From Gemmatimonadales bacterium (GTDB lineage: Bacteria > Gemmatimonadota > Gemmatimonadetes > Gemmatimonadales > GWC2-71-9), in the NCBI GenBank assembly GCA_036500345.1, contig DASYCE010000002.1, positions 124,001 through 188,000 of the forward strand: 64,000 nt of DNA, written 5' to 3'. Both the position numbers and the translations under genes were made by a program. Below the pieces are notes generated by a model. That model was not told the origin of the DNA and searched no databases. It was given only the letters and a program-made list of their open reading frames with translations. Below are positions 11,133 to 20,733 of this stretch, in pieces (position 1 is the first letter of the stretch; each line of letters begins with the position of its first letter).

Positions 11133-11221
11133 TAGTGCAGCCCCGCGAGTTGCATCCAGCCGGGAATTCTCACCGCAAGATACCGATCAAAAAATAAACA
11201 GTTCATCGTGTTTACCATGCT

Positions 11222-11237
11222 GATGCCAGCGCGCAAC
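11222..11237. promoter_or_regulatory. Near-match to the palindromic enhancer motif
   Basis: GATGCCAGCGCGCAAC matches GTTGCG-N4-CGCAAC at 10 of 12 defined positions. It lies about 70 bp upstream of a -24/-12 candidate at 11298, a usual distance for a sigma-54 activator site. Confidence 0.4.
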
Positions 11238-11297
11238 AGATTTGTAAGTCATTGTTACGAAAGCATTTGATAATTTTCGCCAAGCGGCTAATCCGAG

Positions 11298-11313
11298 TGG
11301 TCTGCCTATTGCG
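11298..11313 (+). promoter_or_regulatory. Sigma-54 promoter candidate upstream of riboswitch
   Basis: TGGTCTGCCTATTGCG has GG at -24 and TTGC at -12 with exact spacing (8 of 12 consensus positions). Transcription from it would begin near 11324, just before the riboswitch candidate, giving a leader of about 180 nt. Confidence 0.45.
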
Positions 11314-11360
11314 AATATCGAACAGCGTCGGGGCGAAAGTCGCTCCGGAAAATCGTCGTG

Positions 11361-11458
11361 ACGCTGCCCAGAGCACACCTGTGGAAACGCAGGGTCGCAG
11401 AGTCAGGGAGCTACCGCGCTCAATACAGCGAGCGCCATGCCCGCCCAGCCGCCAGCGT
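11361..11458 (+). promoter_or_regulatory. Candidate cyclic-di-GMP-I (GEMM) riboswitch
   Basis: The leader has the GEMM-I hallmarks in order. A closing stem pairs ACGCTG (11361-11366) with CAGCGT (11453-11458). GCACACC corresponds to the usual GCAAACC. A 6-bp hairpin CCTG-TG/CG-CAGG is capped by a GAAA tetraloop (11378-11393). GGGTCGCAGAG corresponds to GGGACGCAAAG. A second arm runs from GCTA to CCATGC, which resembles the tetraloop receptor halves. A further hairpin (11464-11481) follows as a possible expression platform. Several conserved bases differ (A to C, A to T, A to G), so ligand identity is uncertain. The controlled gene would be the lipoprotein at 11504. Confidence 0.5.
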
Positions 11459-11503
11459 AACTCCCTGGTCACCGGACCAGGTCAACCTGGGCTGAGGCTC
11501 GTC

Positions 11504-11923
11504 ATGAAGATGTCTGTCCGTGGTCTTGTTCGGATCGTCGCTCCCGCTGCGTTCGCCTTCGCCGCCGCGTGCAGTTCCGATGCTGGCACCAGCGTCACCA
11601 CGCCGCCACCGGCCCCGAGCGGCGGATGGCTCACCTTGCAGCTGGTCACGCCGCGTACCGACGACGGTGCAGCACAGTTCGCCGTGCGTGGACCCGCGAT
11701 CGACAGCGTCAAGCTCATCGGATATGACGGCTTCGCCACCATCCAGTCCGGTACCGCCAACTTGATTGTCACGGGGGCCGTCACGGGTGGCAGCGTCGCC
11801 CAGATCTACGTCCCCGACCTGTCGCTCGCCGGAGAATATCAGGCATCGATCGCTGCGGCGGCCGCCCGCCAGACCTATGTCATGCAGTCGCTCACCGGCT
11901 ATCGCGCCGTGCTGGTGCGCTGA
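11504..11923 (+). CDS. Small lipoprotein
   Basis: 139 residues from the ATG at 11504; an ATG two codons later is an alternative. Residues 1-23 are a lipoprotein signal with the lipobox FAAAC. The mature part is a Pro-rich spacer (TTPPPAPSGG) followed by ~110 residues of predicted beta-strands with no family I recognise. It is the only plus-strand gene between 7.9 and 16 kb. It has its own leader with a sigma-54 candidate and a riboswitch candidate, and is flanked by glycosyltransferase operons. Its last 25 bp overlap the end of the convergent gene. A role in the cell envelope or matrix, tuned by c-di-GMP, is inference. Confidence 0.75.
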   Translation: MKMSVRGLVRIVAPAAFAFAAACSSDAGTSVTTPPPAPSGGWLTLQLVTPRTDDGAAQFAVRGPAIDSVKLIGYDGFATIQSGTANLIVTGAVTGGSVAQIYVPDLSLAGEYQASIAAAAARQTYVMQSLTGYRAVLVR

Positions 11924-14823: not shown

Positions 14824-15552
14824 CTACTTCCGGCGGCGGCGGAAACCTGCACCCGCCATCCCGACGAGTCCGACTGCCAGCATCGCCATCGTGCCCGGCT
14901 CCGGGGTCGGCACTTCCTCCGGGAACGAGACCTGCGCCAGGAACTCCTGCTCACCGTGACCCGCTCCGAGGGCGTCCGAGATGATCACCCAGTCGTTCGG
15001 GTCGATCGACGCCGTGTTGGCGGCCGCAAAAGCTGTCCAGTGCGCGACATCGGCCGCATTGTAGCCCGAGTGACCAGTCGGATCGTAGCCCATCAGAGTC
15101 CAGATTGCGAACTGGATCTGCGGGTTTCCGCCCCACGTGGTCGCGCCATGAGCGGTGGCCGGGTTCGATGGATCGATGAAGTCATCCGTGCCGCTCATTT
15201 CCTGGGTAAGCACCGCCGCTTCGGTGTAGTTCAGCGGGGCGCCAGCCGGCTTGTACACGTTGGTGAACGGCCCGTTCAGCGAAGTCGCGAAGGCGTTGTA
15301 GAAGCCGGTCGGGATGCCCGGCGTGATCTGGTCGGTTTCGTCGACGCACCAGATCTGGAACGTCGGACCACTCGAGAACTGGCCCTGGAGGCCGTTGTAC
15401 GAGCCGATCGAAGCGCTGGAACCGCAAGCGTCGTTGAAGACGTTGACGCCAGAGCAGCTGGCAACCTGGAACTGCACGGGAACGGTCTGCGCGCTTGCGC
15501 CGGTTGCAAGGACCGCAGCGAGGGCAACGCCACCAACAATACGGCGCAGCAT
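14824..15552 (-). CDS. PEP-CTERM sorting-domain protein 2
   Basis: 242 residues with a signal peptide ending SAQT. The PEP-CTERM tail is TPEPGT, the helix MAMLAVGLVGMAGAG and the basic end FRRRRK. The mature region shares with its neighbour the motifs VQFQVA-CSGVNVFN, FQIWCVDETD, IPTGFYNA, IQFAIWT-MG and GAGHGEQEF. PEP-CTERM proteins are exported, then recognised and cleaved by exosortase, usually in bacteria that make exopolysaccharide. A sigma-54 promoter candidate lies at 15621-15636 and a palindromic enhancer candidate at 15791-15806. Confidence 0.93.
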   Translation of the reverse strand: MLRRIVGGVALAAVLATGASAQTVPVQFQVASCSGVNVFNDACGSSASIGSYNGLQGQFSSGPTFQIWCVDETDQITPGIPTGFYNAFATSLNGPFTNVYKPAGAPLNYTEAAVLTQEMSGTDDFIDPSNPATAHGATTWGGNPQIQFAIWTLMGYDPTGHSGYNAADVAHWTAFAAANTASIDPNDWVIISDALGAGHGEQEFLAQVSFPEEVPTPEPGTMAMLAVGLVGMAGAGFRRRRK

Positions 15553-15806: not shown

Positions 15807-15984
15807 GGCACCTTCCCGAGGGGGCACATCGGCCATTTTGTGGACCTGACGCGACAATCGGTTCGCAAGCGGAATTCTCCCGCAGATAGAAATTGGATAA
15901 AAATTTGACGATCAGTCTCTGTCATTTCCCGGGGATGACAGCAAGAAAACAGCTAAAACTGGCATTTGATCGGAATACGACTCA

Positions 15985-16000
15985 TGGAACGGGACCTGCA
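15985..16000 (+). promoter_or_regulatory. Sigma-54 promoter candidate for repeat subtilase
   Basis: TGGAACGGGACCTGCA matches the -24/-12 consensus at 10 of 12 positions with both doublets. The predicted start near 16011 leaves a 67-bp leader before the ATG at 16078. Confidence 0.6.
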
Positions 16001-16077
16001 TAAGAACCGGTCAGTTCTCGGCCGATACTAGCTCGCATCTTCGGCTACTGCTGTCCAACGCTTTCCAGGTCACCATC

Positions 16078-20733
<4,656 letters not shown>

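Follow-up and report, generated by a model that had tools for sequence, protein, structure and literature searches.

A predicted sigma-54 promoter and a GEMM-I riboswitch in series upstream of a lipoprotein gene in a soil Gemmatimonadota bacterium

A gene for a small lipoprotein lies in an exosortase/PEP-CTERM-like exopolysaccharide locus of a soil or peat Gemmatimonadota bacterium, and its upstream region raises the question of whether two regulatory inputs, one at the promoter and one in the leader RNA, converge on a single protein. We analysed a stretch of 64 kb around this gene (the window) together with related genomes; the genus consists of metagenome-assembled genomes, and the sister genomes include palsa_1233. 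As the original prediction had it, the gene stands amid glycan genes, its neighbours encoding glycosyltransferases, an EpsI-type exosortase-associated protein, polysaccharide export and tyrosine-kinase proteins, and PEP-CTERM proteins. The features considered here are the following.

11185 to 11201, plus strand: putative activator (EBP) site GATCAAAAAATAAACAG, a degenerate TGTC-N9-GACA dyad at constant spacing
11241 to 11261, plus strand: tentative second dyad TTTGTAAGTCATTGTTACGAA (6 of 7 pairs), some 55 bp 5' of the -24 element
11298 to 11312, plus strand: predicted sigma-54 (-24/-12) promoter TGGTCTGCCTATTGC, from orthologue conservation and rpoN in the genome
11324, plus strand: putative transcription start, 12 nt past the C of the -12 element, from sigma-54 promoter geometry
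11362 to 11457, plus strand: GEMM-I (c-di-GMP-I) aptamer with A20, from Rfam score and covariation
11464 to 11481, plus strand: hairpin CCTGGTC-ACCG-GACCAGG 3' of the aptamer, from the fold, with no U-tract after it
11487 to 11497, plus strand: CTGGGC, complementary to GCCCAG of the aptamer (11443-11448), followed by a Shine-Dalgarno-like GAGG
11504 to 11923, plus strand: lipoprotein of 139 residues, predicted cohesin-like beta-sandwich, from seven orthologues, lipobox Cys, model and structural match
15894 to 15910, plus strand: second operator-like site, upstream of a subtilase gene, second-best locus of the motif model in the window
16078 to 20733, plus strand: subtilase with BACON-like repeats (Peptidase_S8, 2.1e-54)

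The aptamer and the gene behind it

The Rfam covariance model RF01051 (c-di-GMP-I, GEMM-I) matched the plus strand at 11362-11456 over the full model (positions 1-87) with 41.5 bits (E 1e-4), above the gathering score of 35 bits, and this was the sole Rfam match within the window. RNAalifold analysis of ten aptamers from the genus gave 26 base pairs, 15 of which carried compensatory changes on both sides, and P1 is formed by CGCTG (11362-11366) paired with CAGCG (11453-11457). The GEMM-like leader proposed earlier is thereby confirmed as a riboswitch. It resembles other RF01051 riboswitches in scoring above the gathering threshold over the whole model and in its conserved core, P1 helix and GAAA tetraloop, and differs from them in having A in place of G at ligand-contact position 20 and in a leader that would be fed by a sigma-54 promoter. 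The riboswitch lies directly upstream of the lipoprotein gene in five of the six genus orthologues; none was found before the orthologue in genome G083. GEMM-I is present in 80 of 102 genomes of the family, and the host genome holds three candidate sites, two of which exceed the cut-off.

The reading frame opens with ATG at 11504 and encodes the 139-residue lipoprotein that had been claimed; lipobox Cys23 is invariant across the seven orthologues, and the six others in the genus share 47-68% identity with it. A Pfam search with the protein matched no family. The structure model (mean pLDDT 89.8, and about 98 over residues 40-139) predicts a cohesin-like beta-sandwich, the closest structural match being cohesin 2xdh (rmsd 2.6 over 96 residues). 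With a Z score of 9.0 and only 6% identity, the similarity to cohesin modules is borderline and not informative on function; the protein may have a surface or matrix role.

Ligand and direction of switching

The base preceding the GC of the core (AGAGCA) is an A at window position 11372, which we take to be position 20 in Vc2 numbering, a placement that fits the positions of the tetraloop and J2/3. G20 contacts the ligand and is required for the c-di-GMP-selective form, not for membership of the RNA family. The aptamer does not have this G, and its A agrees with GEMM-Ib. Because A20 is associated with recognition of 3',3'-cGAMP, the ligand is not assignable as c-di-GMP, and c-di-GMP cannot be assumed as the second input, as it was in the original prediction; the riboswitch may respond to c-di-GMP, to 3',3'-cGAMP or to both.

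That the architecture is as described and the aptamer in fact senses 3',3'-cGAMP, as GEMM-Ib RNAs do, which would make cGAMP signalling the second input, is a serious possibility, if somewhat short of an even chance. The aptamer studied here has A at position 20, as do 92 of 155 family aptamers; the other 63 have G. A class I GEMM aptamer with the G20A mutation was crystallised with 3',3'-cGAMP (4YB1, as cited in PMC6274999), and cGAMP is preferred by GEMM-Ib RNAs of Geobacter (PMC6456294). Several sister genera encode GGDEF proteins whose membrane part was classed by eye as MASE1-like and which combine Ser at the Hypr position with a GGDEF active site (L200-L210); these are candidate 3',3'-cGAMP synthases in Gemmatimonadaceae. 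Against a cGAMP ligand, the Hypr position of the seven GGDEF domains in the host genome reads D, D, D, N, D, H and D, with no Ser/Thr-type (Hypr) cyclase among them; the association of A20 with Ser-type cyclases across genomes is not significant (17/19 versus 31/44, Fisher p 0.12); and A20 by itself is no proof of cGAMP preference. Comparison with the Geobacter GEMM-Ib RNAs is similarly divided. They too have A20 and lie upstream of envelope and extracellular genes, and their tandem copies and terminators are matched elsewhere in Gemmatimonadaceae, whereas leaders of the host genus are without terminators and the host genome is without a Ser/Thr-type Hypr cyclase. With more than half of the class I aptamers of A20 type and Hypr-like cyclases in sister genera, the question arises of whether 3',3'-cGAMP signalling operates in this largely uncultured soil group.

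Some further observations concern aptamers and cyclases of the family. In three genera (g2, g3 and g8; L007, L010, L011, L015 and L028), GEMM-I aptamers occur in tandem with a separation of about 70-100 nt, and these loci carry terminators on the P1 strand. Aptamers of the A20 and of the G20 type are found together in one genome, G001. A GGDEF protein with ferredoxin-type cysteine motifs (G000:C16:46623-47096, L195) has Asn at the base-recognition position. This Asn variant is found family-wide; it was considered as a special cyclase and set aside, being present in 69 of 102 genomes and uninformative on A20.

Across the family, 54 of 156 leaders show complementarity of at least 8 bases to the P1 3' strand within 100 nt, against 7.8 in shuffles, and a T-rich tail follows the complementary stretch in 41 of these 54. 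Family terminators thus use the P1 3' strand, and since a ligand-stabilised P1 would prevent them, their arrangement argues for ligand-ON logic. For the lipoprotein leader itself, both a terminator and a sigma-70 promoter were considered and neither was found: it contains no terminator-like site and no U-tract, and no sigma-70-like promoter is present in 11133-11530. Its P1 3' region is able to pair with the CTGGGC next to the GAGG, and folding predicts a translational ON switch, in which the start codon is unpaired at 15-36% when P1 is not enforced and at 97% when it is. The G076 leader opens similarly with P1 enforced; among the seven leaders the effect is clear in these two and not in the other five, so that translational ON stays a prediction.

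Conversely, the ligand might repress the lipoprotein, either through an OFF switch or with the hairpin at 11464-11481 acting as a Rho-dependent or weak terminator. A stable hairpin does follow the aptamer in most leaders of the genus, and the ON prediction is clear in just two of seven. The hairpin at 11464-11481 is, however, without a U-tract, and in family members with clear expression platforms the P1 3' strand is part of the terminator, which implies ligand-ON. We regard repression as rather improbable, and the translational ON switch is retained below.

The predicted promoter and the likely activator site

The -24/-12 candidate of the original prediction lies at 11298-11312, where GG and GC stand 10 bases apart and 8 of 12 letters agree with the consensus applied (TGGCACG-N4-TTGCW). 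This site could not stand alone, because shuffled versions of the intergenic region reach 8/12 at a rate of 8.7%; a second 8/12 match occurs at 11329. Yet the site is conserved, as five of the six genus orthologues keep a co-located -24/-12 site (TGGCCAACGAATTGC, TGGTCCGGCTATTGC, CGGTCCATGAATTGC, TGGTCCATCAATTGC, CGGCCCACAAATTGC). In G083 the promoter is kept and the start codon follows almost directly, and in G081 no -12 element is recognisable, though dyad and riboswitch are kept. Sigma-54 sites are also enriched before GEMM-I aptamers family-wide. A strong site (GG/GC, at least 9/12 letters, no more than 120 nt from the aptamer) was found in 55 of the 145 leaders with enough upstream sequence, where the controls gave 4 (reverse strand), 2 (positions further upstream) and 4.4 (shuffles); related leaders were counted singly, and the controls share this redundancy. 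The host genome encodes a single rpoN, and of its eight full-strength activator domains two lie within the window. Transcription from this promoter would start at about 11324, 38 nt 5' of the aptamer, which agrees with the order and spacing of elements that had been claimed. As a separate observation, a sigma-54-like site (TGGCATACCGTATGCT) lies on the minus strand at 15636-15621, about 70 bp upstream of a PEP-CTERM gene (14824-15552).

An alternative is that the riboswitch is real and transcribed from a housekeeping promoter, with the -24/-12 site and the dyad as chance matches or relics. The poor single-sequence significance of the -24/-12 match and the missing -12 element in G081 would fit such a reading. 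Conservation of the site and of its 113-114 bp spacing to the dyad, the family-wide enrichment and the absence of a sigma-70-like site speak against it, and we consider it unlikely.

The dyad that accompanies the sigma-54 promoter is 17 bp long and sits 113-114 bp upstream of the -24 element in the genus orthologues (113 bp in the host). Scored over seven anchored leaders at offsets 20 to 259 from -24, dyad symmetry reached 44/56 at offsets 113-114, where the mean over all offsets is 22.8 (sd 3.8), and pairwise identity of the 17 bp peaks at the same offsets (0.60 versus 0.40). A weak secondary peak appears at offset 54-56. G081, which was positioned via the dyad motif, was excluded from the offset statistic; motif and offset were spotted by eye in the same sequences and scored later, so the statistic is not fully independent. 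A search of ten genus genomes offers a partly independent check: the strict operator (at most one mismatch) was located seven times at separate places, with none in the backward control, and six of the seven are before the lipoprotein gene, a paralogous leader or a subtilase gene, or on the lipoprotein contig (G083). The host copy is degenerate, with 4 of 8 consensus letters; it is the top match of the motif model in the window, but is also one of the sites used in building that model. Outside the genus, no clear family-wide enrichment was seen (23/144 versus a shuffle mean of 16, allowing one mismatch), and the dyad therefore looks genus-specific. From its sequence and position, 11185-11201 is likely to be the activator site.

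The palindrome originally named as the enhancer, CTGATG-N8-CAACAG at 11220-11239, has the letters described (5/6 pairs) at a plausible distance upstream of -24, but as an activator site it is very improbable and was rejected, since 55% of shuffles contain one as good, its right half is not kept in G081 and the other dyad is the one kept at fixed spacing. A perfect dyad with 6-bp arms lies nearby, at 11195-11214.

Probable combined control and a possible regulon

Taken together, we think it probable that the lipoprotein gene is serially gated by a dyad-bound activator, a sigma-54 promoter, a GEMM-I riboswitch and a translational ON step. An NtrC-family activator would bind the dyad at 11185-11201 and drive sigma-54 RNA polymerase at 11298-11312, yielding an RNA that starts near 11324 and has the GEMM-I aptamer as its first element; and ligand binding would close P1, releasing the P1 3' region from the ribosome-binding region so that the lipoprotein is made. 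Activator and cyclic dinucleotide would both be required, as in an AND gate. The proposal that two inputs converge on the lipoprotein thus gains from conservation in the genus and from the family statistics, with the enhancer placed further upstream than it had it and with c-di-GMP as one of two candidate ligands. The two inputs appear separable, as G083 has dyad and promoter without the riboswitch.

A published parallel is offered by sigma-54/PrsR PEP-CTERM genes, which are likewise single-gene units with a long intergenic region and an activator motif 5' of -24/-12 in an exosortase/exopolysaccharide locus (PMC1569441). That motif was reported in Proteobacteria only, with a spacer averaging 62.8 nt (Haft et al. 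2006, PMC1569441), whereas in the host the dyad starts about 113 bp from -24, the product is a lipoprotein and a riboswitch is present. The two activators of the window, the only ones compared, scored 365 and 377 bits, below the cut-off of 502.6 bits for the PEP-CTERM-box regulator model (TIGR02915). No paper connecting the parts of this layout was found in the open-access literature searched. The individual parts are known; their recurrence across the family as a riboswitch fed from a sigma-54 promoter appears to be new. Riboswitches are usually treated separately from transcript initiation, and an activator-dependent promoter found repeatedly before a cyclic-dinucleotide riboswitch makes combinatorial control directly testable.

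The operator-like site at 15894-15910 took no part in building the motif model. It is followed by a -24-like TGGCA at 15960, where the -12 element reads GA instead of GC, and by the subtilase gene. Since such a site precedes the subtilase gene too, lipoprotein and subtilase are probably co-regulated as one regulon. No aptamer was found before the subtilase gene of the window; open reading frames whose N-terminus is similar to that of the subtilase do lie behind GEMM-I aptamers in G080, G084 and G078. A wider reading, which we put forward tentatively and as less likely than not, is a sigma-54-gated regulon of Gemmatimonadaceae with cGAMP-type (A20) riboswitches and a dedicated operator, comprising surface lipoproteins and the subtilase. 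If true, it would be a cGAMP-type riboswitch regulon outside the groups described (Geobacter and others), in which activator input is multiplied by RNA input.

Operators without a riboswitch were noted at the G083 lipoprotein gene (L053), where the promoter is also kept, and at the subtilase genes of G081 (L234) and of the window (15894-16078), so that the riboswitch looks like a module that is gained and lost. Finally, the signature M-x-[FY]-x-[FH]-K-L-[SA]-x-R-[LV] (MTFKHKLSRRLA, MPFTFKLSKRLA) opens 50 of 158 GEMM-I-controlled reading frames (L238-L267). It is also carried by lipoproteins with no riboswitch detected nearby (14 of 19 loci checked). At the DNA level, 36 genomes hold 77 copies of the pattern, with none in the backward control, and 49 of the 50 signature reading frames are behind A20 aptamers.
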